IMG/VR virus record: IMGVR_UViG_3300029263_000025
Coordinates: 1 to 31,255 of that record
DNA: 31,255 bases
Strand: one strand, 5' to 3'
Source of the DNA: a virus
In this document: positions 5,666 through 30,487 of the stretch, piece by piece
How the letters are laid out: every line of letters starts with the position of its first letter
Position numbering within the stretch: position 1 is the first letter of the stretch
Program-made: the position numbers and the translations under genes
Notes under the pieces: generated by a model
Databases searched by the model: none
Told to the model about the DNA's origin: nothing
What the model saw: the letters and a program-made list of their open reading frames with translations, nothing else

Positions 5666-6349
5666 ATGGGTGGATTTGGCGGCGGCGGCGGAGCACCAGC
5701 GGTTACAGCAACACCAGCGGTTACACCAACACCAGCGACGACAGGCCCGACTGTGCCAGACGGCAGCATGGCTCAGACGTTTATCACCAATAACTACGGT
5801 GAAACGCCTGACATTCAGGCCGACTATGTTCGCAAGGAAGGCGCGGCGGCAATTCCAGGTATGGGAGAAGACGACTTAGCTGCTGTGCTTGGCGGCGATG
5901 GCATGAACCAGATGTTCCAACCCTTTGCAGAACAGCGTGGCGGTGCATCATTTCTAGGCGACCAGTACGAACAGGCCGAAGGCTTGCCCAGTATGGACGC
6001 AGTAGTGTCGAACCAAAACCCGCAAGCTACAGGCGAAGGCGGTCAGGGATTTGGCAACCGAATTATCGGTGGCGAAGCAGGGGTTGAAGCTGGCGCTGTA
6101 CCAGATGGCAGCATGGAGCAGACTGACGTAGTCGGCACAGAAATGGCTTCCGACGTAGCATCGACTAACGAGCAGCCATTGCCCGGACAGGCGCTAAACA
6201 ACGACGTAGATTACGAAATGGCGATGGCGGGCGGCGGTCAGCAGGCAGGGTTTATGCCCAATTCACGTCGGGCGGCTGGTCTTGGAACGGGCCAGATGTC
6301 CCGTGGCTTGATGTCACCGCGTACAGGCTTTGGCCGGAAAATGGGCTAG
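5666..6349 (+). CDS. Low-complexity putative virion protein, 227 aa
   Basis: Unrecognised. The start ATG has AGGAGA at 5654-5659. The N-terminus is Gly-rich followed by Thr/Pro/Ala repeats encoded by an 18-bp tandem repeat. The hexapeptide VPDGSM occurs twice, at residues 30-35 and 145-150, each followed by a Q-T pair, which suggests an internal duplication or a recurring recognition or processing site. The middle is acidic and Gly-rich (QATGEGGQGFGNRIIGGEAG). The C-terminus is basic and Gly/Met/Arg-rich (RGLMSPRTGFGRKMG). The end style is shared with the two upstream virion proteins, which also finish in short basic Gly/Arg segments, hinting at a common packaging or assembly tail. No enzymatic motif is seen. 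Structural role is inferred from the operon. Confidence 0.5.
   Translation: MGGFGGGGGAPAVTATPAVTPTPATTGPTVPDGSMAQTFITNNYGETPDIQADYVRKEGAAAIPGMGEDDLAAVLGGDGMNQMFQPFAEQRGGASFLGDQYEQAEGLPSMDAVVSNQNPQATGEGGQGFGNRIIGGEAGVEAGAVPDGSMEQTDVVGTEMASDVASTNEQPLPGQALNNDVDYEMAMAGGGQQAGFMPNSRRAAGLGTGQMSRGLMSPRTGFGRKMG
5696..5737 (+). repeat. 18-bp tandem repeat
   Basis: Two copies of an 18-bp unit (ccagcggttacaNcaaca) differing at one base, followed by the first 6 bases of a third. It encodes the Ala-Val-Thr-x-Thr-Pro run near the N-terminus of the 227-residue protein and keeps the frame. Confidence 0.8.
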
Positions 6350-10320: not shown

Positions 10321-13300
10321 GTGAGCAATGAAATTGACGCCATCCTTAGCAATATGGATGATGACGTTTCTGACAACGGGTCAGGAATGGGAACTAACAG
10401 CGGGCTTGGGTACGCAGCCAACTTAAACAAAGCAAACGCCAAGAATGTTTTTGCGCGGCAAGACTTTGTTCAGGACATTTACGACTACTACTACGAAAGG
10501 GACGGAAAGTCTTTTAGTGGTATCGACGAAGCAAAAGATTACTTCATGGAAGACCGCCGCTGGCGCAACATGAACCTCGTATCCATTGGCCGCGACTTAG
10601 TTGACGCTAATAATCAGTCTGATCAGCAGGGCAAAAGACTTGCACGACTACAGACTACCTTCGACGCCATGCCAAACTTCTACGAGGATGGTGGGGATGG
10701 CTGGAAAGGTTTTGCTACAAACGCTTTGGCAGTAGTGGCAGACCCAATAAATCTGATTGGTTTCGGTTCTGGTGGTGTGGCCGCAAGAGCGGCAGCGGCG
10801 GGCGTAATAGCAGGCGGCGGTAGGCAAGTCTTACAGCAGTCGGGCATGGCGGCGGTGCGAGGCACAGCATCAAGGGAAGCCTTGAAGGCGGGCATATTCA
10901 AAGGTGCATTGTACGAGGGCGGCGTGTCTGGTTTGGCCGAGGGCGTGCTAGACGTAGGGATACAAGCACGTAACACAGAGTTAGGATTACAAGACGGCTA
11001 CAGCTTGAAGCAAGGCGCTGTTGCGGTAGCTGGCGGCACGGTAATAGGCGGGGCTATGGGTGGTGCGCTTGGTGGTTTAGCCGCCAAGGTACGAAACCCC
11101 TTTTCAGACGGCATGAGCCAAACAGACCGTGGCATCCAAGACGGCAGAAACAGGGTAATGGACGCCGAGATGGACGCCGCAAACGCGGATAACATCGCAC
11201 TAGATGAGGCAAACGCAAACGCAGACACGGGCGAAACAGCCCAAGAGAGTTTCACTCGGCGCATTGGCGAGACACGGGCAGCGGTCAATCAAAGAACGAA
11301 CCTAAGTCGTGCGTCTGCGGCAGAAGGCGAACGATCAGCCAACGAACAGCGTACAGAGACAGGCCCATATGACACGCAAGACACGGATGGCGTCAATGCA
11401 GGCCAACTGACCGAAGACGACACTCTCGACTTAGCGGCTCAGAATGTTCAAAGCATGGATGAGTTGGCTCGCAAAGCGGAGCTAGACGCAACAACGGAAA
11501 CCGACTTAAACAAACGTAACGCTCTTAATGAACGTGCGGTGAAGCTACGTCGGGCGTCCGAGGCTCTGCATGGCAAGCTGGAAAGGTATCTCAGCCCCGA
11601 CGAGGTCACTAGCACTGAGCTAGTTCAAGAGATACTGCAAATTACAGACCAGAGCGATCTGCTAATAAAAATTGGCAACGACCCTGATGCGCCTCAACCG
11701 ACAGGTAATACGGGTGGCGGTACTGCTAGAAACCTGACTGGTGCAGAGGCCGACGCCGACGCCGACGTAGCTAACAATGCTGGCGCAAGACCAGGGGATG
11801 GCGGCAATCTAACTGGCGATGAGGCCGGAGATTTCAGCGACCCTCAAAACTTTACAGGTGGCGATAATCGCATGGGGCCAAATCGGCCTGAAACCGCGCT
11901 GGTTCCTGAAACTGGGCCTGAGTTATCTCAACCTGACCAAGAGTTTAAAGATCGACTTGAGGAAAGTAAGGTTATCGACACAAGGCTTGAAACAGACGTT
12001 GCAAGTCTCAATGAAGAATTAGTCGGTGAACGGCAGAAGTTTGAGACTGACAGTCCCCTCATTGGCGAAGAACCAGATATCACGGAAATACTTAAAGCTG
12101 GCGACATTGCCGAAGTCGGTGAAGCCGCCGACGCCATGAAAGTACGTCTGTCTGGTGTGGCGCAGCAGAATGGCGTGGACATATCAGGCATACCAGACAT
12201 GGAAAACTCTGGTGGCAAGGTTATTGTCGAGCGACTTAACGCGAAGCGTGCAGAATTACGAAGTGTCCAGCAAGCCAGAATAACTGAACTGGAAGCTAAG
12301 ATCGACCAGACTGAGTTACGGCGTGCTGACAACAGTAGGATAAGAGACACTGAAAAAGTAGATTACGAAAAGGCAGTTGTGGAGCGGGACGCCCGACTAG
12401 CCCAAGAAGAATTAGACAGGGAAGTTACACGGACCCTTGAGAAGCAGCGCAAAGAAGCAGTAGTAGAGCAAGCCGCAGCCGACGCACGCAATCCGTCTTT
12501 AGTCTTTGAAACGCTCAACAGTAAGTCTGATACGGTTGAATACCTAAAGTCGATAGGTGTTAGCGAAGAAGATATGAAGCCGCTTACTAATCTCGACGCT
12601 CGGACCAACAGGCCAGCGCGACAAGAAGCATTTGTCAAAATCTGGAACGAACGAATGGGCCAAGAGTTGATGGTTCAGTACGCCACTTCCCGCATGGGTG
12701 ATAATGGCCCTATCGACAGTTTCTACAACACTGACGTTTTGCCTGATAGTACCATGACCTTTTTTGAGGCCATTCTAGTCGAGCAGGGTTTTGATCCAGA
12801 CTTACGCGCAGCAGCGTTAGCCTCTCACAACAAGATATTGGATAACCCCAAAGACCTTAACGACAAAGTCTTGGAATTACATACTTCACCTGAACATATA
12901 AATAGCCCCGAACTTTTCTTTGAGGCAGCAAAAGAACGGTTTGGCAATGCGTATGCCGAGAGGCTCGCCGTGCATCTTCACGATGACATTATTAACGCCC
13001 CAATCGCCAAACTCGATAGCTACACTTACAAGCAAGATGGGATAAACGCGACGTTACCGCCAAGGGACATGGCCAGCCCGTCTGGCGAGCCGCTTTACGG
13101 TATGAAGGTAGCGGGCGCAGAAAGAACACTGCCCTCTGGCAACCTCTCGACGGAGCCGAACGCTAACCGAGATGGGCGCGTAAAAGAAATCGAAGCGGTT
13201 ATGTCCGACGCTATAAACAAAGAGCTTATGGCTTTGAAAGAGCGTGCAAGAAAGACTGCGCTCTTGGCTGGCATAACCGAAGAACAGGCAGACGCCGCCG

Positions 13301-16300
13301 CCACAAGAATTTACTACGACAAGATAGACAAGATGGTGGCTGACCGCGAAGGGTTCTTGGAGCGCAACGATGCGTTCCTTGATGGCCAGATGAAAACAGT
13401 CGCTAGTAGCATTTTAGAGATGAAGTCGGCGCGAGATGCTTACAACAAGACCCGTTCCGACTTGCCTAAAAAGTTTAATAGCAACCTTACTTCTGAGGAA
13501 GTTATTGTCCAAGAGCTTGATAGCAATGGCGAGTTAGTCGATCTGGATAAGATTAGATACACCTTAACACAGAGCGCGAAGCCGACCATTGAAGAAAGTG
13601 CTCTTTTGAACGCGCACTTCAAAAGCCTTGAGGCTCTAAGGGAGACTAAGCGTCGTTACTCAAGCACGGCTAAGTACAACGTCGTTATGAAAAACAATAA
13701 TGTTCTCCCTATCGGCCAGCTTATTATGGAAGCTGAGAACGAAATACTGACGTTAAAAAGCAAGAAGCAAACCAGCATAAAAATTATCGCGCCTAAAGAT
13801 CGTTCGTCGAAAGACATCAGCGTGGGTTTTGACGCAGGCTTGGCAGACTTCATAGGTCGATCACAAAACCGAAAGGGTGACGGCACATACGAGGTGAAAA
13901 ACAAAGTTCAGGCTATCCTTAAAGGCTCTAACATCAATGGGTACGAGGGAAAGTTGTTCCGCAGAGGGCAGAAACTTGCTGACAATGGCCGATACGAGCA
14001 ACGAACTGCGACCGCAAATGCAATCGACGAAATGCAAGCCTCTCGCATAGCGGCAGGCACGCAGCAGAGAGTGAGAGATGAAATAGAGGCCGAGCGTAAT
14101 AAGCCACGGGTCACAGAATTAGACTTTCATATTAAAAAGATCGACGCTCTCAATTCTAAAATCTATCAGGTCACTAAGAACAGAGGGTCTAACAAGCCAA
14201 TCAAGTATGATGGCAAAATAGTAACGATTGAAGAACTAACCGACTTGCGTAACTCAGCTATGAGCAAGGCTAGAGCAGAAGTTGTAAACTCATTTGACAT
14301 GGGTCCGAGTGGAAGCGTCCTGACTGGCCTAAAAGCCGAGAGAGCACGACTAACGAGCAACACGCAAAAGGGCATGCTTGGCAACCAAGCCGAGGAGTAC
14401 AACAAAAACCGTGCTCGCAACATCATGCTCAGTACATGGAACCAGATCAGGCGTGAACTGAACGATCCAAAAACGTCCGATGATCGGGTGCGACTACTGC
14501 AAACAATGACCCGCGACTTGAAACGTATGGGCAATGTTCAAAAGCAGAACGGCAAGCCTTACGATGAGAAGCTGGCAGAGAGAATTGCCACGTTCGCAAC
14601 GAAGAAGGAAGCCGCTGGTCGCAGGGCCGAGGCCGCTTACAAACGTGATGTCGAGGCTGGCATGTACGACTATGAGAACAGCAGTTACGGTGAAGGCGCA
14701 GACCGCTTTGAACCCGAAGACTTGGGCGTAGCAGATGCTTACGCCGAACAATTAGCCCGACGCGATATGGGCGAATATAAGGTTGATGAAAGCGCGACTG
14801 AGAATATGTTGTTTGGCGACAACTTACCGCCCCAGTTAAAAGACGAGGTTTTACAAGCCGCCAACCAGAAAAAAGTAGCCGAGGTAGCACGCCTAGACGG
14901 CCTAGCAGAGTACACTTTACTCTCAGCAAGGGCGCACCGAGGGGAGATTTCAGGAGATGAGCTGGTCGCTGCAATAGGCCGACTTAACCAAGAGATCAAA
15001 CGCCGAGCAGAGGCAGCGCCAGAAGAAGTAACAGTCGCGGGGCGCAAGCACGCAATAGAAGTAGCGTCTACGACTAAGGGTGTGGAAGTAGATATAAACA
15101 ACGACATCTCTTACTCTCGACCAGAAGGCAGCAAGATCGTCACAATAAAAATTGACGACGTAAAGCTGGGAGAAGCTATAGAAAAACCCGATGGCGGCTT
15201 TTCTATCATGCACCCCGATGGCCAGCGAATAAATTTTAAAAAATTTGGGCCGCTCAAGAAGTCTCTTGTTCAAATATTTAACAGGCAGATTGATGGCATC
15301 CAAGAAAAGTCTGGCAACACGCGCTTTTCAGTTAAGGAAAATGCGAAGGGCATCCCGCACGTACAGAAAGACCCCTCTCAGACTGCGACTTACAAGACTG
15401 ATCCACCTATCCCAGTCGCAAAAAACGTAGCCGCACCAGACGTAAACATAAAGCCAGAAGCCGACGCTAATGATCCGACCACTTGGAGCGGCTTAGACTT
15501 TGAAGATATGCCCGCTGGCCGTAAGCTGGCGATACAGTTCTTAGGCGATGGCCCGTTAGTGAAGCGGCAAGTCGTGCGTATGGATAACGAGAAATCCCCT
15601 CAATCAATTAGGGAAATGCTTGGGACAAGTGGCGACGTGCCATACGTCATTGGCCATGTGCAGTCTGGTGGCCCGAAGGCAGCAAGCCAAGAAACTTTCT
15701 TCCCGATGGACCCAGAGAGCATCTTTATCGACCAGCGTGGCGTTGAGGTTGTTGGGCTAGACGTGCCAGAAGGCAAGCGTGGGTTGTCTGGAAATTCACA
15801 GAGCCGACGTAAGCGTGAAAACAGGGCGTCTGACTTAAGCAAGGTCCAAGGTAACAAGCTCAAGATAGCAGAGGACGATCAAGCGTTCTTTGCAGAAATG
15901 GGCGCAGAGCTAAACACGGTAAACGATTTAGTCCTCCACATCGAAAAGCTAGAGACTGCCGATTGGCAGGGCGAAATACGATCCTTAAAGGGGTTAAAGA
16001 AGTACGCGACCGCACGTTCAGCAGCGGCACGCATACTCAAGGCAAACGTACCAAACGGCATTAAGAAGCCTACGACTACCACAGCCAAGGCGAACGAAAC
16101 TCTACGGACTATGTTCGATGGCTACCCACAGGCAGAAGTCCAAACAGCGGTAGACTTTATTGAAAGAGTGGCGCTTTTGAACGGTGGGGTTGCGCCGAAA
16201 ATGCGAGCAGGCGATAGCCCGCTATTCGACGTAAACACAAATGAGATCCAAATCGACGTAGCGAGCGGTTCAAAGACTGGTGAAGTAAGAAGCACCCCTA

Positions 16301-19300
16301 TGTCTATGGAGCTAGTGCATGAGATGGGCCACTGGGTCTATGACAACCTTCTCGACGAAGGTGATCGTCAAAAGTTCTGGTCGTCTATGGAAAAATACTA
16401 CGATGATAACGGCACCCTTAACTTCAAAGACTTAGAGCGTGGCTTGGTAGACCCGAAGTTTATCAGCAATTCCGCGTCTAACCCGCAAGAGTTTTTCGCC
16501 AACCAGTTTCTAGGGTTTGCGATGCAGACTGACGCGGTTCGCGTGCCGGGTTCCGCTTTGCACCAAGTCTTTGCGAAAGTAAGCAAGATTGGCGCTGATC
16601 TTTTGAACTGGTTGCTAGGTCGTGAGACATTTCAGATCGACAGCGACTTGTATCAAATCTTCCAGAAGCACATGCCGCAAGATGTAATCGACCCTGAGAC
16701 TAATCTGCCCACAGCGCAGCCCTCTATGTTCGGACACCTAGAAGCACTTGGCCGTGAACACGGTAATGATGGCTCAATCACCGTTGGTTCGGGCATGATG
16801 AAGCCAGCAGAATTTGCGGGCAAACAAATGCGCGTCTTAGACACACGTATCCGCGAGCTTCACGCAGCAAAACGCGCCTACCCCACAGGTCTTGGTGACA
16901 GCATGTCTCTGGCAATCGACTTAGAGCGCATAGCCAAGGAGACTTACGGTGAATATGGCGGGGCAAAGGGCCAGCCGTTCCATAAGAAAATCCCAGGAGC
17001 ACCTGAGAGCGGTAAAGCTCGGATAATGGCGCTCGACGAAACCGTTTCACGCGAGCCAATCATTCAAGCCCAGTACGCAATCCATACATTCCTCAGAAAA
17101 CTACGTGCAGAGGAAGCTGACCACAAATTCTCTACCATGCTAGGCGGCATGTCTACCAAAGACAAAGCAGCACAAGAAGCGATTATCTCTGAGATGACGG
17201 GTATGGGGGAACGAAACCAGCAGGCGATGTACGAGCGGCTGCTGACAGATAGCAAGTCGGCCTACGAAGGTCTTGATGAAGCTATCGTCGATCACTTGCA
17301 CCGCCTGTCTACTGACTTGCAGATCGCGCTACAGGGAGCGGTCAAGGAATACACGGGGATGTTCCAGAGAACTATGCCGTTCACGGAACGCAAGCGCATA
17401 GCGATAGACGAATACACAGGTGCGGCATACGTCGAGACAGATAGCCCGAAGACAGGTCGGTACAAAAAAGCGGCTCGCAAACTAGCGCGGCAAGAGCTTG
17501 CACTGTCTCAGTCTGTAAACGAAGTCGTGAGCAAGATGTCTAGCTCTGGGATTGATTGGCGCACGGTGTCTGAGAAGGATATTATCTCAGCAGCACAAGG
17601 CAGAAAAAAAGAACTAATCACAATTTCCGAACAAAGACATGAACTTGCTAGGGCGGTTTCCGCAGAGGGGGCAGAAGACTTAGGCGCGAAAGCCACAGCC
17701 TTTAACCAACTCAAGGCCAGCGAGACACACAAGTCTTTTGACTTGCCTGCTATCTTAAACCGTCTGGAAAACGGCAGCGATACACAGCGAAGACTTCTTG
17801 AAATCTTTAGAAGTGATCGCCAAGACCATAAAAACCATATGTTGAAGATTATTTCTGAGACAGACCTTGAGGACACCCACGACTTAATCATAGCTGGCCG
17901 TCATTATGGTGCGGAACTTCCAGATGCACCAAGCGCCGTTTCAACTGAGCCTATGTCTGGTGCGGTAAGCCAGTTCACAAGCTCTATCAGCGTGAGGGGT
18001 AAGGACAAAAGCCAGCAAGCGATGGCGCAAGACTTGTTCACAAAGATGACAAGAATGATAAAGGGCTTTGAAGACCCCAGCGTCAAGATTGATGACGATA
18101 TCTTTATGACCGCATACGACGTGGCGATGATAAGGAACGATCCAAACGCGCTGGACGCTGACGACATAGACATGGCCTCACCAGTTGGCGAAGCATGGGA
18201 TGATGCGCGAGATGCGATGCGTGACATGGCTGACAACGTGATAGCGATCAACAAGCTACGCGAAAAGTTCCCGTCCGAGCTAAGTGGCACTATGGAGCAA
18301 TCCGCTAAGTACGATGCTGAGATTATGAAGTACCGTAAGCCTTTGTTCGACTATCTGTATGACTTCACTTACGCACTACAGACAGGAACAGACCAGCGGG
18401 CGATCAAAGGATTGGACGCAGCAGGCGTAGAGCAAATGAAGGCAAAGTTTGCACGCATGACTACAATAGATTTCACCACGACTGATGCGTTTACAGTTAA
18501 AGGTGGGTCTACCGAGGCTAACGCTTCACTCAGAAAGATGATCGACGAAGCCGTGCAGATATTGGACGGCATCCTGTTCCAGCCACAATCATCAGCAGAC
18601 CGATTGATGGAAACCCGACGCATGGGTACTGCCGACTTGCACAGGGCAGAGCGTGACAAGCACGCTATCTTGGGAATGGTTAGAGGTGCTGACGGCCAAG
18701 CCTTGGTACACCCATCGGTCGCGAGTAAGTATGCAGATGCCTACCTAGACACTATCGGTGACAGACTTGACGGCTCTGCAAGAGACTTGACTGGCGCTGG
18801 CCCAAAGGCTGACTTAAAAAATCGCCTGAAATTCAACGTGTCGTCTGACCAAAATGTTCGGGGTGTTACATCCACACCGAATGGTCAGTACGGAGATGGC
18901 GTTTATCTCAAGAGCATTAAGCACGTAGATAAAGGTTTCGACGTAGTAGAAGTTAAGCGGGCAGCGGATGAGGCCGCAAGTTCTTCCAGACTTAACTCCA
19001 ACCAGAAGAAAGAGTTAGATTTCTCGGTCAACTCAACGATTTGGTTGCGTGAAGCTATCAGAGATTTAAACAATAAACTCGATACATCCTTTGATGAGAA
19101 GCAGCTTTTAGAGAGGCTGTTAAAAATGGATCGAACTCACTGGGGTGTAATCGACGACATAACAAATGGCCGTATGAAGGACCAGAAAGTAGCGCCCGTA
19201 TTTGCAAGGGTACGCGCACCGCTCGACCTCACAAGCAACACTCAGTATTCTTTGAATGGCGAGACAGACGGGACGATGCGCCATTTCATAATGAAGCTGG

Positions 19301-22300
19301 CCGAGGGTAGAGTGCTAGATGCAGAGGGCGTGCAGGCGGCAGTGGACGCATTTACCGCACCGATGTCAGGCCGCGAAATGTATCAAGTGTTTACGAACAA
19401 CTCGAATGGCTTGCTTCACAAGTATGGCAAGTCGAACAATGGTCCCGCCTCAAGACTAGCGTTCAACCGCATGCTGAAAGACATGGGCTACGACGGCCTG
19501 CACACCGACGAAGGCGACGTAGTCTTTAACCCGGAGATGGTTAAAGAGGCCAATAGCTTTAAACCCGAAGACAACTTACTCCATGATGGAGAGGGTTTTG
19601 GCGGGGACATGAAGCTGACGGGCCAAGTCGTCGAGGAGATGATGGTTCAGAACGGTCGTCTTGGAAACCCAACCTTTGTTGGTGTCGCACGCGAAGCGCG
19701 ACGCATGGGTATGCCGCAGGCGATACTCGACGTAACTGAAAAGGTATTCAAGAAGCGCAGTATCCAGCCCGAAGACGTAGAGAAAATATCCAAATGGTCT
19801 ACGGTCAAAAACTTCTTCCGCGAAAACTCAAGTCTATTCAGGCAGCTTGGAGCCAATTGGTTTGGTGATCAGATACAGCCCATGAGCGGTGTTGGTACTT
19901 TTGAAAAGCACGACGCACTGCTGGCCCGCAGAATGTCTCCGATCATTAGAAAGCTAAATGCTCTCCCCGATGGCGGTGGAGCATTTAAGCGGTGGAACCG
20001 CCGTAACCGTGGCCTTGCTATGGGTGCGCTGGACGCTGGACAACCCGCCAGCCACGAACGCATCATCAATGCGTTGCGCCGTGGCCGTGGTGCGGTTCAA
20101 GCTCTGGGTCTTGCGGAGCGAGAGATCGCTATGGACATAGCCAATGGCTTTAACGATGAGCTTAACCAGATGAAGGCTCTCGGAATAAAAGTGGGCGATG
20201 CACGTAAACTCGGTTCAGACTTTTATGTCCCACAAGTTTACGACAGGGAAAATATCTTATCAAACCCTAGCCGCTTTAGAGAAGGCTTAGTCGAAATACT
20301 GAAGCGCGAGCAGAACAGACCTGACTTCGATAGCCAGAGAATGACTGAGGATGAGCTTGGCAAGATCGCTGACCTCATGGCTCATAGGCTCACCAAAGGC
20401 TTTGACCCTTCGACCGACGAAGCAATACAGCAAGCACTAGGATCACCGTTTGCGGCTCGCGTCATCAACATTAAGCCAGGTGACTACGACTTTATGGATG
20501 AGTTTCTTGTGCAAGACTTGCAAGGTATCTTGGCTAAATACTACGACCGCACAATCCGCAAGCGCGTGCTGACGGAGCAGTTTGGTGTGAACGGTCATGG
20601 CTTTAACGCTTATGTAGAGACAGCCCAAGATGGCCTCGACGCTGGGGTCCAGATACTCAACAGTAGATATAGCCCGACTAACGCTGTTACGACTGAAAGC
20701 GGCATGGCGATGGTTGACGATCTGCAAATACCATCCTTACGTCTAACCCCCGATCAGTCAAAAACTTTAGTCGTGAAGCTAAAGCGCCTACTCGACGACC
20801 CAGAGACTAACGTCAACAACAAGCAGACCGCGATCAATATGATAATCGAAATGGGTGGGCCAGATGCTTACAACAATGTGCAGTTTAAAAAGCGCGTTGA
20901 GGCAGTGGTGAACGCCGCCGTAGACTTTGCTGGCCGTAAGCCTTCCAGTACGACAGTAGCCAAGATGCGTCAGATGATGGACGTGTTGAACAAGAAGCCG
21001 ATTGATGGTGGGTCAGGTCAGGAAGCACGCTACAAGGTTAGCCGTGCGCTCAAGTCTTTCACCAGCGTATCTCTTTTGGGCTTCACGACATTTACTTCTC
21101 TACCCGATATTGCTCTGCCCCTAGTTCGCAGCGGCAACATGAGAGCCTTCGCAAAAACATGGGCGAAGTATAGCACTGACCCGTCCTACCGAGCAGCAGC
21201 CAAGAACATCGGCGTAGGCATAGACAATCTTATGCACGAACGAATGGTTCAGATGGCAGGCGACGGCAACCAAAAGTTCGCCAACGCCTTCTTTAACGCG
21301 ACGTTGCTTACGCCTTGGACAAACACCATGCGTGAAGTCGCGTCCTTAGTCGGGTTCGAGAGCTTCAAGAGCGAGATTGACCGGGCTGTTCGACTAGCCA
21401 GCAAAGGCAAGAGGGGCAGCAAGTCGTATGCGACGGCTGTTAGGTATCTGGAACGCTATGGCTTGACGGGAGACAACGCCCCTCACGACTTCTTAGCGGA
21501 TGGCAGCTTTAGAATAGACATGCTCCCCAAGGACGAGGGCATTGAGATGCAAGTTCAAATGGCGATGCTTAGGTTTACCAACGAAGCGATCTTTACGCCT
21601 AATCCGAACGACGTGCCGATGTGGGCGCAGACCCCTTGGGGCAGCATGATGTTCCAACTCAAGTCTTTCCCACTAATGATGATGAAGCTACAGGGCTACA
21701 TTGTTGATGAGTTTAAATTGGGCAACGTCGCACCCGCGTTCTACATGCTTACAGCAGGCGTCGGGGCTGGTTCCCTATCGGTTGGCGTAAAAGACTATGT
21801 GTCTTTGCGGGGCGGGGATGACGAGCGTTCAGCGGAGTTTAGGAAGCGCAAGCTCACAGAAAGCAGAGCGGGCATAGCCGAGATACTTGGCGTAAAAGAA
21901 GGCGACGACCTAGACGCCGCGCTGGGGTGGTACTTGGATGGACTGCTCGCGGTTGGCGGCATGGGCCTAATCGGTGAAATGCTCTACAACACAAGCGCAC
22001 AACTCGACAATGGCAAGTATGGTTTTGTACGCACAATGTCGGCAGCGTTTGGGCCACAAGTAGGCACCGCAGAACTAGCGTTCAATGCGGCAGCAGGCGC
22101 AGGGCAAGTGATCAGCAACAAGATAAACGACGAGGATAAAAACGATAAGATCAGAAACACGTTGCGCGATATGTTCGGACGATTACCTGTGGTGGGTCGT
22201 ATCGCTGGTGGCCCAACAGGCAGGGAAACCTTCGTCGATGCAGTCGGTGGAGAGGCCAAGAAGGCAGGCCGACCAGCCAAAGGAAAACTTGGCGACAGTA

Positions 22301-22341
22301 AGTTTGGCGGCGTGGAGTTCGGAGGAGCGTTCGACAAATGA
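10321..22341 (+). CDS. Giant 4006-aa polyvalent ejection protein: zincin + ADP-ribosyltransferase-like
   Basis: A single 12-kb frame, GTG start with TGGAG 9 nt upstream. Visible order: acidic start; hydrophobic Gly/Ala segments at about 126-165 and 230-260 (GGTVIGGAMGGALGGLAA); low-complexity Asp/Ala region with NLTGAEA, NLTGDEA and NFTGGDN near 470-520; charged coiled coil about 654-723; long helical region; zincin metallopeptidase motif H2000-E2001-M-G-H2004 with probable third ligand E2057 in NPQEFFAN; another helical stretch; an ADP-ribosyltransferase-like domain about 2840-3080 (GDGVYLKS, ARVRAPLDL, GYDGLHTDEGDVVFNPEMV); and a 900-residue C-terminal region with several hydrophobic helices after 3560 (FQLKSFPLMMMKLQ near 3785). 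Zincin and ART domains joined in huge phage proteins are the hallmark of polyvalent proteins, thought to be delivered with DNA and to modify host targets. The position after internal virion genes suggests it is ejected. No T7-type RNA polymerase motifs were found, so it does not look like an N4-type virion polymerase. Confidence 0.8.
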   Translation: MSNEIDAILSNMDDDVSDNGSGMGTNSGLGYAANLNKANAKNVFARQDFVQDIYDYYYERDGKSFSGIDEAKDYFMEDRRWRNMNLVSIGRDLVDANNQSDQQGKRLARLQTTFDAMPNFYEDGGDGWKGFATNALAVVADPINLIGFGSGGVAARAAAAGVIAGGGRQVLQQSGMAAVRGTASREALKAGIFKGALYEGGVSGLAEGVLDVGIQARNTELGLQDGYSLKQGAVAVAGGTVIGGAMGGALGGLAAKVRNPFSDGMSQTDRGIQDGRNRVMDAEMDAANADNIALDEANANADTGETAQESFTRRIGETRAAVNQRTNLSRASAAEGERSANEQRTETGPYDTQDTDGVNAGQLTEDDTLDLAAQNVQSMDELARKAELDATTETDLNKRNALNERAVKLRRASEALHGKLERYLSPDEVTSTELVQEILQITDQSDLLIKIGNDPDAPQPTGNTGGGTARNLTGAEADADADVANNAGARPGDGGNLTGDEAGDFSDPQNFTGGDNRMGPNRPETALVPETGPELSQPDQEFKDRLEESKVIDTRLETDVASLNEELVGERQKFETDSPLIGEEPDITEILKAGDIAEVGEAADAMKVRLSGVAQQNGVDISGIPDMENSGGKVIVERLNAKRAELRSVQQARITELEAKIDQTELRRADNSRIRDTEKVDYEKAVVERDARLAQEELDREVTRTLEKQRKEAVVEQAAADARNPSLVFETLNSKSDTVEYLKSIGVSEEDMKPLTNLDARTNRPARQEAFVKIWNERMGQELMVQYATSRMGDNGPIDSFYNTDVLPDSTMTFFEAILVEQGFDPDLRAAALASHNKILDNPKDLNDKVLELHTSPEHINSPELFFEAAKERFGNAYAERLAVHLHDDIINAPIAKLDSYTYKQDGINATLPPRDMASPSGEPLYGMKVAGAERTLPSGNLSTEPNANRDGRVKEIEAVMSDAINKELMALKERARKTALLAGITEEQADAAATRIYYDKIDKMVADREGFLERNDAFLDGQMKTVASSILEMKSARDAYNKTRSDLPKKFNSNLTSEEVIVQELDSNGELVDLDKIRYTLTQSAKPTIEESALLNAHFKSLEALRETKRRYSSTAKYNVVMKNNNVLPIGQLIMEAENEILTLKSKKQTSIKIIAPKDRSSKDISVGFDAGLADFIGRSQNRKGDGTYEVKNKVQAILKGSNINGYEGKLFRRGQKLADNGRYEQRTATANAIDEMQASRIAAGTQQRVRDEIEAERNKPRVTELDFHIKKIDALNSKIYQVTKNRGSNKPIKYDGKIVTIEELTDLRNSAMSKARAEVVNSFDMGPSGSVLTGLKAERARLTSNTQKGMLGNQAEEYNKNRARNIMLSTWNQIRRELNDPKTSDDRVRLLQTMTRDLKRMGNVQKQNGKPYDEKLAERIATFATKKEAAGRRAEAAYKRDVEAGMYDYENSSYGEGADRFEPEDLGVADAYAEQLARRDMGEYKVDESATENMLFGDNLPPQLKDEVLQAANQKKVAEVARLDGLAEYTLLSARAHRGEISGDELVAAIGRLNQEIKRRAEAAPEEVTVAGRKHAIEVASTTKGVEVDINNDISYSRPEGSKIVTIKIDDVKLGEAIEKPDGGFSIMHPDGQRINFKKFGPLKKSLVQIFNRQIDGIQEKSGNTRFSVKENAKGIPHVQKDPSQTATYKTDPPIPVAKNVAAPDVNIKPEADANDPTTWSGLDFEDMPAGRKLAIQFLGDGPLVKRQVVRMDNEKSPQSIREMLGTSGDVPYVIGHVQSGGPKAASQETFFPMDPESIFIDQRGVEVVGLDVPEGKRGLSGNSQSRRKRENRASDLSKVQGNKLKIAEDDQAFFAEMGAELNTVNDLVLHIEKLETADWQGEIRSLKGLKKYATARSAAARILKANVPNGIKKPTTTTAKANETLRTMFDGYPQAEVQTAVDFIERVALLNGGVAPKMRAGDSPLFDVNTNEIQIDVASGSKTGEVRSTPMSMELVHEMGHWVYDNLLDEGDRQKFWSSMEKYYDDNGTLNFKDLERGLVDPKFISNSASNPQEFFANQFLGFAMQTDAVRVPGSALHQVFAKVSKIGADLLNWLLGRETFQIDSDLYQIFQKHMPQDVIDPETNLPTAQPSMFGHLEALGREHGNDGSITVGSGMMKPAEFAGKQMRVLDTRIRELHAAKRAYPTGLGDSMSLAIDLERIAKETYGEYGGAKGQPFHKKIPGAPESGKARIMALDETVSREPIIQAQYAIHTFLRKLRAEEADHKFSTMLGGMSTKDKAAQEAIISEMTGMGERNQQAMYERLLTDSKSAYEGLDEAIVDHLHRLSTDLQIALQGAVKEYTGMFQRTMPFTERKRIAIDEYTGAAYVETDSPKTGRYKKAARKLARQELALSQSVNEVVSKMSSSGIDWRTVSEKDIISAAQGRKKELITISEQRHELARAVSAEGAEDLGAKATAFNQLKASETHKSFDLPAILNRLENGSDTQRRLLEIFRSDRQDHKNHMLKIISETDLEDTHDLIIAGRHYGAELPDAPSAVSTEPMSGAVSQFTSSISVRGKDKSQQAMAQDLFTKMTRMIKGFEDPSVKIDDDIFMTAYDVAMIRNDPNALDADDIDMASPVGEAWDDARDAMRDMADNVIAINKLREKFPSELSGTMEQSAKYDAEIMKYRKPLFDYLYDFTYALQTGTDQRAIKGLDAAGVEQMKAKFARMTTIDFTTTDAFTVKGGSTEANASLRKMIDEAVQILDGILFQPQSSADRLMETRRMGTADLHRAERDKHAILGMVRGADGQALVHPSVASKYADAYLDTIGDRLDGSARDLTGAGPKADLKNRLKFNVSSDQNVRGVTSTPNGQYGDGVYLKSIKHVDKGFDVVEVKRAADEAASSSRLNSNQKKELDFSVNSTIWLREAIRDLNNKLDTSFDEKQLLERLLKMDRTHWGVIDDITNGRMKDQKVAPVFARVRAPLDLTSNTQYSLNGETDGTMRHFIMKLAEGRVLDAEGVQAAVDAFTAPMSGREMYQVFTNNSNGLLHKYGKSNNGPASRLAFNRMLKDMGYDGLHTDEGDVVFNPEMVKEANSFKPEDNLLHDGEGFGGDMKLTGQVVEEMMVQNGRLGNPTFVGVAREARRMGMPQAILDVTEKVFKKRSIQPEDVEKISKWSTVKNFFRENSSLFRQLGANWFGDQIQPMSGVGTFEKHDALLARRMSPIIRKLNALPDGGGAFKRWNRRNRGLAMGALDAGQPASHERIINALRRGRGAVQALGLAEREIAMDIANGFNDELNQMKALGIKVGDARKLGSDFYVPQVYDRENILSNPSRFREGLVEILKREQNRPDFDSQRMTEDELGKIADLMAHRLTKGFDPSTDEAIQQALGSPFAARVINIKPGDYDFMDEFLVQDLQGILAKYYDRTIRKRVLTEQFGVNGHGFNAYVETAQDGLDAGVQILNSRYSPTNAVTTESGMAMVDDLQIPSLRLTPDQSKTLVVKLKRLLDDPETNVNNKQTAINMIIEMGGPDAYNNVQFKKRVEAVVNAAVDFAGRKPSSTTVAKMRQMMDVLNKKPIDGGSGQEARYKVSRALKSFTSVSLLGFTTFTSLPDIALPLVRSGNMRAFAKTWAKYSTDPSYRAAAKNIGVGIDNLMHERMVQMAGDGNQKFANAFFNATLLTPWTNTMREVASLVGFESFKSEIDRAVRLASKGKRGSKSYATAVRYLERYGLTGDNAPHDFLADGSFRIDMLPKDEGIEMQVQMAMLRFTNEAIFTPNPNDVPMWAQTPWGSMMFQLKSFPLMMMKLQGYIVDEFKLGNVAPAFYMLTAGVGAGSLSVGVKDYVSLRGGDDERSAEFRKRKLTESRAGIAEILGVKEGDDLDAALGWYLDGLLAVGGMGLIGEMLYNTSAQLDNGKYGFVRTMSAAFGPQVGTAELAFNAAAGAGQVISNKINDEDKNDKIRNTLRDMFGRLPVVGRIAGGPTGRETFVDAVGGEAKKAGRPAKGKLGDSKFGGVEFGGAFDK

Positions 22342-27584: not shown

Positions 27585-27748
27585 TCGATGTCTCCTTTTG
27601 AGTTTACGTTTTGATTTAACACCTTATCCATACCCCCCATCACCAATATAGACAACTAGGTGTTCACCAAGTTTGTGTCACAAACGTGACAGATGCGTTG
27701 CCGCTGTGTAATTAGACAGCTAGTGGGTATATATAAAGGAGGAGTACA
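27585..27748. promoter_or_regulatory. Divergent control region
   Basis: A 164-bp spacer between the leftward recombination operon and the rightward early operon. It holds operator-like palindromes (27671-27691), AACACCT (27618-27624) facing AGGTGTT (27658-27664), GGTG-TT-CACC (27659-27668), and an AT-rich TATATATAAA (27728-27737) that merges into the AAAGGAGG RBS of the rightward regulator. A weak leftward -35/-10 pair (TTGTCT, 17 nt, TATGGA on the minus strand) can be drawn; no strong rightward promoter is obvious. Confidence 0.65.
27671..27691. promoter_or_regulatory. Overlapping operator-like palindromes
   Basis: GTTTGTG-T-CACAAAC (27671-27685) is a perfect 15-bp palindrome. Overlapping it, TGTCAC-aaac-GTGACA (27676-27691) is a second perfect inverted repeat. 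The position between divergent operons and before a Cro-like gene makes them likely repressor sites. Confidence 0.6.
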
Positions 27749-27967
27749 ATGAAGATAAAATTCAATGCCGCAAAGTTAGTCGAAGATTGCGGTGGCGTAA
27801 GCGAGGTTGCGAATGTGTTGGGTAATACCCGCACCGCACCTTATCGCGCAATCCGCACAGGATATTTCGGCACCCCCACTCTAGCTAAATTGCTAGAGAA
27901 AAATCCAAATCTCAACATCAACAGTTATTTCGAGGAAGAACAAAATGCAGGGTACGAAACTGAGTAA
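27749..27967 (+). CDS. Cro-like helix-turn-helix regulator, 72 aa
   Basis: A small DNA-binding protein at the head of the rightward early operon. Residues 8-24 (AKLVEDCGGVSEVANVLG) and the following NTRTAPYRAIRTGYFGTP resemble the HTH of short phage regulators, with the recognition helix likely around RTAPYRAIRTG. The C-terminus NPNLNINSYFEEEQ is acidic. RBS AAAGGAGG is strong. Genes of this size next to operator palindromes and divergent operons usually act like Cro, repressing one or both flanking promoters. No partner CI-type repressor or integrase is visible in the window, so a temperate lifestyle is not shown. It overlaps the primase-helicase gene by 23 nt. Confidence 0.72.
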   Translation: MKIKFNAAKLVEDCGGVSEVANVLGNTRTAPYRAIRTGYFGTPTLAKLLEKNPNLNINSYFEEEQNAGYETE

Positions 27968-29936
27968 GCACGACTTAGACGAATGGAAAGGACGGGAGTA
28001 CACGGCTGCGCTTGAGGCGCATGATCGGGGCTGGAATATTATGCCGTTGTCACTGAACTCCAAGACGCCATTGCTCGGCTGGCTCGACTGGCAGACGAAC
28101 GCGGTCACTAGCGATATGATTGACCAGTGGTTCACCGAGGGCGTCACGACGAAATCAGGTCAGGTCATAGAGTATTTCAACATTGGCCTAATCACTGGCG
28201 AGCTAAGTGGTGTGGTCGCTGTTGATTGTGACAATGAAGACGCGATCAAATACGCACACAAGAATGGGTTATCCTCACCGTTTAAAGTTCTAACTCAGAA
28301 GGGCGCACACTATTATTTCAAGCACCCACGCGAGGGCGCAAGGTTCGCTAACAAGGTCGGCAGCAATGCGCGTGACTGGCCGAAGGTGGATGGCTTGGAC
28401 TTCCGAGGTGACGGCGGGTTCGTTGTCATGCCGCCCAGCATCAAGGTCAAGGACGACGTGGTCGAGCATGAGTATCGGTTTGAAACGACTGCTGACTTTG
28501 ACGACATGGACTTACACGTTTGGAAGGGTGCGCCTTCCGAGAAAACCGACGACGAGTTTTCCTTTGATGCGCTCGACTTAAGTGGTGTGTCTATACATAA
28601 TCCAGACGAAGGCTCAAATATCTGGGACAACACGCATGCGCGTGTCGCGCACCTTGGCCGCAAGCTGCAAGATGGCGACGGTACTGACGCCCTGATGGTC
28701 AAGTACGTCGGTCAAAAGTGCCGCCAAGGTGTCATGGGTGATGACCTTTTGAAAATGGCCGACGACTTCTACGGCGAATACTTTAATAGCAGTGGTTACA
28801 CTGAGGTTGATACCGCGAGGTGGATCGAAAGCAAGTGTCGCAGCGCAATCGAAATGGATCGGCGCAATTACCCAAGCGATTACGACGACCAAGGATACCG
28901 CAAGTCGGCTGAGAAAAAACAAGTGAGACTGGGCAGGCTCAAGCCCATATTAAATGCAGACATTGATCGACTGATCGACAGCATCGGTGAAACAGAATAC
29001 TGGTGCGACCCGTTGATCCCAGCCGCCACGATCACACAAGTCGTGGGCTACAATGGACACGGCAAGTCTTTCTTTCTGCAAGCATTGCTTACGTCGATGG
29101 CTGCTGGCAAAAGTGTGTTCGGACCCTACGAAACCAAGCCTGCCAAAGTGCTGTACTTAGACTACGACAATCCAAGCCGCACCATCCTGTACCGTTTCAG
29201 GAACTTTGTTAAAATGTTTGGCGACACATCCGACAAGTTCAATATGTGGTCGCCGTCACTGATATCATCAGAGGATGGTGGCGAAATGTCCCTTGCAACT
29301 GAGCAGGGGTTTGGCCTGTTAGGTGAATGGCTTGAAGCGATCAAGCCCGACGTTGTCGTGATCGACACCGTGAGAAATGCGTTCGGTGGACTTGAAGAAG
29401 CGAGCGCATCGGAATGGTTCAAGGTTAATCACGTAGCCAAGTCGATCCGTAACAAGTACGGCGCGTCAGTCGTAATGGTTCACCATCGGAATAAGCCAGG
29501 TGAGAATGGTATGGGTAGAGAGGCTGGCTCGACTGCCCAGCTTACCGATATCGACACGCAAGTAATGGTGACGCAAGTGTTCCGCCAGAAGTCTGACGCC
29601 AAAGCGAAGGCTGGGTTGCTCGACGCTGACTTGGAAATGTACGACATGACTGGCGCGGCACACACACCATTCGGCTACCTCGAAAAGCGCATGCGCCCTG
29701 ACAGCCGCCTTCGAATGGTCAGTCAGATAAGTTTCGGAAAGGTTAGGCAGACTACCGAGCTACACGAAACCCATTATATCGGTTGGGCAGAGAGCCTGCT
29801 CGACGGTACGCAGTATGTGGTTAGCACCGCAAGCGTCAAGCAAAAGGCTGCTCACTATTACGCCAATGGCATGACGGTACAGGACGTGAGCCGCAAGTTG
29901 AACTTGCCTGTGTATGAGGTGCAGTCATGGGTGTGA
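27945..29936 (+). CDS. Primase-polymerase / RepA-like helicase fusion, 663 aa
   Basis: Bifunctional replication protein making primers and unwinding DNA. N-terminal Prim-Pol domain, about 20-200: NIMPLSLNSKTPLLGW at the start, VVAVDCDNED with catalytic D94 and D96, THE KGAHYYFKHP segment, and LDFRGDGGFVVMPPS, the GG-(F/Y)-VV-x-PPS signature of the family. C-terminal RecA-like helicase, about 340-600: Walker A GYNGHGKS at 368-375, PAKVLYLDYDNP, Walker B VVVIDT with D474, and VMVHHRNKPG as the later motif. The C-terminal 40 residues (KAAHYYANGMTVQDVSRKLN) look like a small HTH. ATG 27945 has GAGGAAG upstream and lies inside the end of the HTH gene, giving coupling. This fusion suits a phage that initiates its own replication; no DNA polymerase is seen in the window. 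Confidence 0.9.
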   Translation: MQGTKLSKHDLDEWKGREYTAALEAHDRGWNIMPLSLNSKTPLLGWLDWQTNAVTSDMIDQWFTEGVTTKSGQVIEYFNIGLITGELSGVVAVDCDNEDAIKYAHKNGLSSPFKVLTQKGAHYYFKHPREGARFANKVGSNARDWPKVDGLDFRGDGGFVVMPPSIKVKDDVVEHEYRFETTADFDDMDLHVWKGAPSEKTDDEFSFDALDLSGVSIHNPDEGSNIWDNTHARVAHLGRKLQDGDGTDALMVKYVGQKCRQGVMGDDLLKMADDFYGEYFNSSGYTEVDTARWIESKCRSAIEMDRRNYPSDYDDQGYRKSAEKKQVRLGRLKPILNADIDRLIDSIGETEYWCDPLIPAATITQVVGYNGHGKSFFLQALLTSMAAGKSVFGPYETKPAKVLYLDYDNPSRTILYRFRNFVKMFGDTSDKFNMWSPSLISSEDGGEMSLATEQGFGLLGEWLEAIKPDVVVIDTVRNAFGGLEEASASEWFKVNHVAKSIRNKYGASVVMVHHRNKPGENGMGREAGSTAQLTDIDTQVMVTQVFRQKSDAKAKAGLLDADLEMYDMTGAAHTPFGYLEKRMRPDSRLRMVSQISFGKVRQTTELHETHYIGWAESLLDGTQYVVSTASVKQKAAHYYANGMTVQDVSRKLNLPVYEVQSWV

Positions 29937-30487
29937 TGAAGTGTATTAGTTCTAATAGTAGAACTGCTCCAATGCAGACCGATAATGACGATAGTCAATT
30001 ATCGCTCTTTGAACATTTAGAACTAATACCCAAGAGCTTCGCTATTATACACACACCCCCTAGACCCCCGTCAATACCACTTTGTGTCACTATTGACCTA
30101 TCCAAAGAGGATATCCCCCTTGGGGGGGGTATCTTTTGCAAAGTCGCGGCAGAGGAACCCAAGATGACAATTCGCAACCAACTTACGGAGGGGCAGCGCG
30201 ACTTGTTGGAATGGATGCTGCACAACGATTACTCTTACCGCGCAATGGCCCGACGCTTCGACGTTAGCAGTGACACGCTCAAGCGCATACTCATACGTGA
30301 GGAACTGGCCGAGTTTGAAGGTGCGAAATACGCGATAGTTTCGCAAGAGGTTGACACCCTCGACAATTGGGAACGGCCTTGCATCAAGTGCAAGTCTGAC
30401 GAACCCCGCCCCCGCTGGCAATACGTCTGCATCAACTGCAAATCTCCAGAAAGCACAGGATTACCCGATGAATGGCTACTAGATTAG
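29927..30487 (+). CDS. HTH + zinc-ribbon protein with uncertain start
   Basis: Likely DNA-binding regulator or replication accessory. In the C-terminal 107 residues, an HTH (YSYRAMARRFDVSSDTLKRI) is followed by a zinc ribbon with two C-x2-C pairs (CIKC and CINC, 13 residues apart). The start is unclear. ATG 29927 overlaps the primase stop by 10 nt with GAGG 7 nt upstream, giving 186 residues and an N-terminal extension that contains QLSLF at residues 24-28, the consensus beta-clamp-binding pentapeptide. ATG 30164 has AGAGGAA (30151-30157) and would give 107 residues starting MTIRNQLTEG. The stretch between them holds strong inverted repeats and a terminator-like hairpin, which argues for the short form, but the 79 codons are free of stops, which argues for the long one. 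Both may be made. Confidence 0.7.
   Translation: MGVMKCISSNSRTAPMQTDNDDSQLSLFEHLELIPKSFAIIHTPPRPPSIPLCVTIDLSKEDIPLGGGIFCKVAAEEPKMTIRNQLTEGQRDLLEWMLHNDYSYRAMARRFDVSSDTLKRILIREELAEFEGAKYAIVSQEVDTLDNWERPCIKCKSDEPRPRWQYVCINCKSPESTGLPDEWLLD
29944..30028. repeat. 12-bp perfect inverted repeat with nested hairpins
   Basis: TATTAGTTCTAA (29944-29955) is the exact reverse complement of TTAGAACTAATA (30017-30028). AGAACT also occurs at 29960-29965, allowing a competing hairpin with AGTTCT (29948-29953). The motif TAGAAC thus appears three times in 81 bp, as operator or iteron sets do. Confidence 0.65.
29980..30004 (+). promoter_or_regulatory. Near-perfect hairpin inside the larger repeat
   Basis: CGATAATGAC (29980-29989) pairs with GTCAATTATCG (29994-30004) except for one bulged base, closing a GATA loop. 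It sits in the middle of the outer 12-bp repeat. Confidence 0.6.
30070..30097. promoter_or_regulatory. Inverted repeat carrying the operator core
   Basis: GTCAATA (30070-30076) pairs with TATTGAC (30091-30097). The interval ends with TTTGTGTCAC (30081-30090), a 10-base match to 27672-27681 in the divergent operator region, suggesting a second site for the same regulator. Confidence 0.5.
30106..30137 (+). terminator. Rho-independent-type terminator within/before the HTH-zinc gene
   Basis: GATATCCCCC (30110-30119) pairs with GGGGGGTATC (30124-30133), 10 bp with one G-U and a TTGG loop, followed by TTTT (30134-30137) that can face the A-rich CAAAGA upstream. It would end or attenuate transcripts leaving the primase-helicase gene. 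Confidence 0.65.

Follow-up and report, generated by a model that had tools for sequence, protein, structure and literature searches.

The window analysed here, a virus record of 31,255 bases, carries at positions 29937-30163, next to a primase-helicase gene, a dense nest of inverted repeats and hairpins, which raises the question of what this DNA does for the phage. A sequence-only reading had offered a replication origin, an attenuator or a small RNA gene, and had suggested that the DNA could serve a dual use. From these functions the origin is the best supported, the attenuator and small-RNA readings being weaker. On the basis of the conserved architecture, the pairing and loop rules, the gene context and the protein relationships, we propose, with a probability of about 0.62, that the element is the DNA replication origin of a CRP-810-type phage. 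Replication origins are poorly mapped in tailed phages with archaeal-type primases.

The gene preceding the element (27945-29936, + strand) encodes a 663-aa protein, the presumed initiator/primase-helicase, that combines a Prim-Pol domain (PF09250, E 4e-20) with an AAA_25 RepA-type helicase (PF13481). RSF1010 RepA (1g8y, E 0.0045) was the only PDB match of this PrimPol-helicase, and the profile of its family found pRN1 ORF904 (E 3e-4); the primase matches pRN1, and no RepB'-specific match was seen for it. According to alignment and modelling, the last 32 residues (29838-29933, + strand) form an HTH, with model helices at 98-107, 112-119 and 123-129, which is presumed to be the repeat-binding domain. 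In Foldseek this HTH resembles those of RcsB and DesR over 34 columns at 1.4-1.6 Å, with an E-value that is not significant, and the fold searches with both HTH models gave HTH resemblance alone and zero significant matches. Downstream of the element, in the window as in its relatives, a + strand gene (30164-30487) encodes a 107-aa protein with an HTH and a four-Cys zinc ribbon, whose recognition region is strongly conserved. The most likely start of this gene is the internal ATG at 30164, since that start is common to the relatives and a Shine-Dalgarno-like AGAGGA lies at 30151-30156. Ahead of the helicase gene there is a short + strand frame with a good ribosome site (27750-27940), which corresponds in position to the 'transcriptional regulator' encoded before the primase of Salicola phage CGphi29 (L146, 1821-2006). 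Elsewhere in the window, positions 10321-22341 encode a 4006-aa protein almost without database matches, of which the C-terminal quarter alone matches PHROGs virion structural or unknown families.

The fold and the repeats of the nest are beyond chance. Its outermost part is a perfect inverted repeat (29943-29955 and 30017-30029), recognized earlier but 13 bp long instead of the 12 bp first given. On the + strand, the left arm contains the short repeat ATTAGTTCTA and the right arm TAGAACTAATA, and an extra copy of the short repeat, TAGAACT, is found at 29959-29965; in the relatives, lineage-specific repeats occupy the place of the left arm. Counting both strands, the three copies of TAGAAC/GTTCTA that had been reported are confirmed (29949, 29959 and 30018), against about 0.04 expected per 227 bp from the rate in the rest of the window. 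The central hairpin (29980-30004), located inside the outer repeat as had been described, has the + strand form CGATAAT-GAC-[GATA]-GTC-A-ATTATCG, with a 7-bp lower stem, a single bulged A at 29997, an upper stem, and a GATA loop closed by a C-G pair. To its right lies a short − strand hairpin, AGC-GAA-GCT, with a C-GNA-G loop and a stem of just 3 bp in the window (30035-30043). The 7-bp inverted repeat GTCAATA/TATTGAC (30070-30076 and 30091-30097), whose arms are absent from some relatives, flanks GTGTCAC, and an intrinsic terminator-like hairpin on the + strand (30110-30137) has a 10-bp stem (30110-30133) with one G·T pair followed by TTTT; both had been correctly picked out before, the former as a repeat with an operator core. 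On the − strand, a leftward promoter-like TTGACG-N19-TATAAT extends over 30044-30074. Its −35 hexamer corresponds to a GTCAA of the + strand, the anchor discussed below, and it includes a DnaA box-like TTATACACA at 30045-30053. Zero shuffles were as stable as the native sequence, either in RNA folding (z = −5.0 for the + strand and −3.6 for the − strand) or in DNA folding of 29937-30060 (z = −5.8 and −5.4). Outside the nest, TTTGTGTCACAAACGTGACA (27673-27695), from the divergent promoter region that precedes the helicase operon, has TTTGTGTCAC in common with the element at 30081-30090, a possible common operator for a phage regulator.

Among named phages, the window's nearest is Roseobacter phage CRP-810, and the window lies close to the family that this phage founded. 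In the 2024 description of that family (PMC11288001) the words 'intergenic' and 'non-coding' are absent and 'origin' is never used of replication. The PrimPol-AAA_25 homologue of that family shows 37-40% identity over 97% of the protein, and in OR671924 the module order is that of the window, with an AAA ATPase, a PD-(D/E)XK nuclease and a Holliday junction resolvase as neighbours. About 50 distinct relatives have a helicase identity of 52-100%, one of them (L131) lying in a Neomarinimicrobiota MAG contig. In nearly all of them the helicase stop is followed, in the same order, by short AT-rich repeats, a hairpin, inverted repeats, GTCAA, a G+C-rich hairpin at the place of the window's terminator, and the HTH/zinc-ribbon gene, and all of the relatives listed have the GTCAA anchor. 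Repeats are dense in the element, which often ranks first or close to first for repeat density within its locus. CRP-810 shares with the window the gene order, the proteins, the element (an 11-bp outer repeat, a hairpin and GTCAA, about 100 bp ahead of the HTH/zinc-ribbon gene) and that gene itself, and differs in that the element lies about 270 bp past the helicase stop. In four loci (L100, L101, L104 and L115) there are genes between the helicase and the element, and the element adjoins the HTH/zinc-ribbon gene, so it may belong functionally to the latter.

Several observations were made at the margins of these loci. The HTH/zinc-ribbon gene between gp22 and gp23 of OR671924.1 (L057, 6398-6688) is not annotated, and in the CRP-810 record the whole 800-bp gap holding the element and this gene lacks annotation. 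An extra conserved stretch like GATAAAACTTTGT is found from the terminator to the HTH/zinc-ribbon gene, within about 100 bp ahead of it, in the distant relatives L099, L106, L107, L109 and L117-L119, and is probably that gene's own promoter or operator. The gap between the element and the HTH/zinc-ribbon gene is filled in the L100 group (about 6150-6290) by a small cysteine-rich open frame (CLRCAR...CVSCG).

Pairing within the hairpin has been kept through double changes, so synonymous-only conservation with no pairing does not apply. In the alignment of 16 relatives, each of the eight stem pairs shows double changes, 100% of the cells are paired and one-sided (G-U) changes number zero. Cells changed on both sides amount to 43 in that alignment compared with 8 in shuffled sets, with a covariation score of 0.76 versus 0.17, and Watson-Crick pairs fill 151 of the 162 cells for the six lower pairs of 27 distinct hairpins that have a single bulged base on the 3' side, versus 55 when shuffled; relatedness inflates such shuffle comparisons, yet slid controls, which retain it, also fail. 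Complementarity of the outer arms gave a mean score of 9.1 within genomes, 6.9 across genomes and 5.6 after shuffling, the pairing being weak in L070, L020, L035 and L027. The comparison of relatives indicates that the structure of the hairpin is selected, with its sequence free to drift. The terminator is a separate conserved part and could attenuate the downstream gene.

Is the selected structure formed by DNA or by RNA? RNA helices usually pass through G-U, and the aligned stem is devoid of such intermediates; the wider hairpin set has four G·T cells in the lower stem, all on the + strand. The loops follow a rule. About two thirds of the 38 distinct main hairpins have a C[G..A]G loop on the + strand, often C-GAA-G, and the short hairpin beside ATTATA has it on the − strand in 12 of the 14 comparable cases, with GAA, GCA, GGA or GTA as triloops, while among 251 hairpins from other places in these loci such loops number only 3 and 9 on the two strands. 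In the promoter hairpins of phage N4, a C-G closing pair and a loop with 5' G and 3' A, which form a sheared G:A pair, are required for extrusion (PMC4496689). Nearest-neighbour energies favour neither strand consistently, and hence the strand argument is based on the loop rule. Judging from the lack of G-U intermediates in the aligned stem and from the C[G..A]G loops, the part made of hairpins and repeats more probably works as a DNA structure than as an attenuator or RNA gene. These two signatures help to separate DNA from RNA hairpins.

The frame that had been noticed across the nest is indeed open from 29927 to 30487 on the + strand, with 29927-30163 as a potential in-frame extension of the HTH/zinc-ribbon protein at its N-terminus. 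Between the helicase end and the HTH gene it is open in 10 of 10 distinct genomes of the window's clade, where all length differences are multiples of three; outside that clade the lengths are mixed and stops are present. Neutral simulation on the clade tree, which ignores structural constraint, gave about 20 stops summed over the leaves and left all leaves open in 0 of 2000 runs. Codon-position differences over the extension were 0.30/0.33/0.36, and this small third-position excess implies that most of the extension is weakly constrained. Around a QLSLF segment (codons at 29996-30010, + strand) the differences were 0.15/0.21/0.34, and the QLSLF codons vary almost only synonymously; we take QLSLF to be the consensus bacterial clamp-binding motif. 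Consequently, in the window's own clade the bases of the element seem to be read also as protein code, which agrees with the dual use suggested earlier; if true, this would clearly exemplify a DNA structure that also bears protein code. We put forward only tentatively, as a possibility that we would not favour at present, the more elaborate arrangement in which a PrimPol-phage origin acting through DNA hairpins on both strands is, in one clade, crossed by a protein frame, the covarying hairpin bases encode a QLSLF clamp-binding segment, and origin structure and clamp-recruiting peptide co-evolve.

The same features could be understood in other ways. If the element acted in the helicase-HTH transcript as a + strand RNA (an attenuator, an antiterminator or a processed 3' UTR), hairpin and terminator would control read-through into the HTH/zinc-ribbon gene. 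This would agree with the good folding of the + strand RNA, with an intrinsic terminator placed immediately ahead of the ribosome site, with the + strand location of all four lower-stem G·T cells and with a boxA-like CGCTCTTTGAACA after the hairpin in the window. We nevertheless consider it unlikely, in view of an aligned stem without G-U intermediates, of the many GAA triloops in place of RNA-type tetraloops, and of the Rfam search, which gave no match at gathering score in the window and chance-level hits below it in the region. BoxA/nut-like antitermination was discarded, as the boxA-like match is present near the window only and lost in the relatives. A purely regulatory region, in which a leftward promoter TTGAC-N17-19-TATAAT and short-repeat operators for phage HTH proteins would direct an antisense transcript through the hairpin with no role in replication initiation, draws on the GTCAA/TTGAC common to all relatives listed and on TATAAT-like hexamers that peak strongly at 19 bp; such a hexamer occurs 15-20 bp from TTGAC in 18 of 32 representatives, compared with 1.5 in shuffled sequences. 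HTH proteins are also encoded on either side, and the operator-like GTGTCAC is common to the element and the divergent promoter region. Nevertheless, 14 of the 32 representatives have no TATAAT-like hexamer at that spacing, at which the promoter is also unrecognisable in distant lineages, there is leftward no gene or obvious terminator before the far side of the helicase gene, and the strict pairing of a freely drifting stem is left unexplained. We thus judge it quite improbable for the element as a whole, although the − strand promoter-like element could be the true function of its right half.

The loop rule is identical to that of the N4 early promoters, and the window encodes a giant virion protein of 4006 aa, so the supercoil-extruded C-GNA-G hairpin might be a promoter for an N4-type virion RNA polymerase. 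Pfam and PHROGs, however, gave no match of that protein to a polymerase, only 2 of 251 hairpins elsewhere in the loci are of the C-GNA-G type while N4 has three promoters of this kind with conserved sequence, and the stem sequences vary freely here, all of which makes this reading very improbable. Even harder to believe is that the region is only coding, a protein extension in which repeats and hairpin are accidental. The frame open in all 10 genomes of the clade, with its length differences in threes, speaks for it, but the protein is barely conserved, as the codon-position differences given above indicate, and the reading is contradicted by the persistence of the architecture where the frame is broken and by the double changes that preserve pairing. 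A DnaA-box origin was likewise rejected, TTAT[AC]CACA being found, sporadically, in just 10 of 51 elements.

For the replication origin, we infer protein binding, hairpin extrusion, priming and initiation at the element, and propose the following model. The PrimPol-helicase, composed of a primase, a RepA-like ring helicase and the C-terminal HTH, would bind the short lineage-specific repeats that flank the hairpin. The DNA hairpins would be exposed by negative supercoiling, by the action of the helicase or by both: the + strand would form the main hairpin and, some 30 bp further, the − strand would form the short one in many lineages. The primase domain would take them as single-strand start sites, like RepB' at ssiA and ssiB in RSF1010, giving one start per strand. 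The leftward promoter and the GTCAA anchor may aid opening or regulation, perhaps via the HTH/zinc-ribbon protein, and the terminator would stop rightward transcripts ahead of the HTH/zinc-ribbon gene. Distant lineages either lack the short − strand hairpin or differ in it. Profiles of GC skew, proposed earlier as a check, and of AT skew show no switch at the element and give no support for an origin. Co-evolution of repeats and HTH residues, judged by eye, was suggestive in one clade and is not counted as evidence. The candidate can be deduced from evolution alone, in a family of marine phages that is widespread and that includes CRP-810, which is in culture.

Outside the close relatives, a search around distantly related phage helicases turned up this design clearly in CGphi29 only. 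In this distant primase phage (L146, 3993-4236), many GGGGACA/TGTCCCC repeats in both orientations surround a G+C-rich hairpin directly 3' of the primase gene, which makes the region a candidate second origin of the same type. A more distant locus with 34% helicase identity (L132, from the genome of Poseidonocella sp. HB161398) has at about 6020-6290, before an HTH/zinc-ribbon gene, a 20-bp perfect inverted repeat with about nine tandem TCCTTGG-type 7-mers inside; it resembles an origin related to the one proposed here and would belong to a prophage or another kind of element.

In plasmid RSF1010 each strand has one ssi site, with the hairpin spanning nt 7-27 and GTG occupying nt 31-33, and these hairpins are where the AEP primase RepB' starts (PMC4434180). 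The oriV of the RSF1010-type IncQ plasmid used for comparison (NZ_CP047016) has on one strand a 21-nt hairpin, CCCCTACCC-GAA-GGGTGGGGG, then CGC-GTG, and on the opposite strand, found by reading the sequence, a hairpin with a C-GCA-G loop, both of them adjoining the iterons. From the published geometry these hairpins would be the ssi sites, the first because it is 21 nt long with GTG after 3 nt. RSF1010/IncQ and the phages have in common repeats (iterons in IncQ), C-GNA-G triloop hairpins on opposite strands with an internal mismatch or bulge, a RepA-type helicase and an AEP-class primase; among the phages, the closer lineages have hairpins with RSF1010-like loops on both strands and the distant ones do not have the second. 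They differ in that RSF1010 has separate RepA, RepB' and RepC whereas the phage has a single fused protein, with no RepC homologue identified; in that the RSF1010 iterons are of 20 bp and bound by RepC whereas the phage repeats are of about 7-11 bp; and in that the phage hairpins vary freely in sequence and are not copies of each other.

Replication of the archaeal plasmid pRN1 requires a stem-loop that follows the PrimPol gene and whose structure, though not its sequence, is conserved; placing it elsewhere on the plasmid restores replication, and a resembling stem-loop has been noted in phage BIP-1 (PMC4234260). The phages likewise have a PrimPol-helicase-DNA-binding protein, a terminator and, just downstream of the PrimPol gene, a large stem-loop conserved in structure and free in sequence. 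The pRN1 helicase is of the SF3 type, whereas that of the phage is AAA_25/RepA-like; unlike pRN1, the phages have clear short repeats, a second hairpin on the other strand and an HTH/zinc-ribbon gene downstream; and GTG is not constant 3' of the main hairpin, unlike in the primase sites of pRN1 and RSF1010. Since RepC, 20-bp iterons, a constant GTG and an SF3 helicase are missing, we do not claim membership in the RSF1010 or pRN1 type. Phage N4 has three hairpin promoters with conserved sequence (PMC4496689). Its early promoters, like the phage elements, have C-GNA-G mini-hairpins extrudable under supercoiling (PMC4496689; here deduced from the sequence), and differ from the single site of variable stem sequence in a phage where no virion RNA polymerase was detected. 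If the origin reading holds, RSF1010, archaeal pRN1 and marine phages would be linked by a common design in which an AEP primase starts at hairpins.
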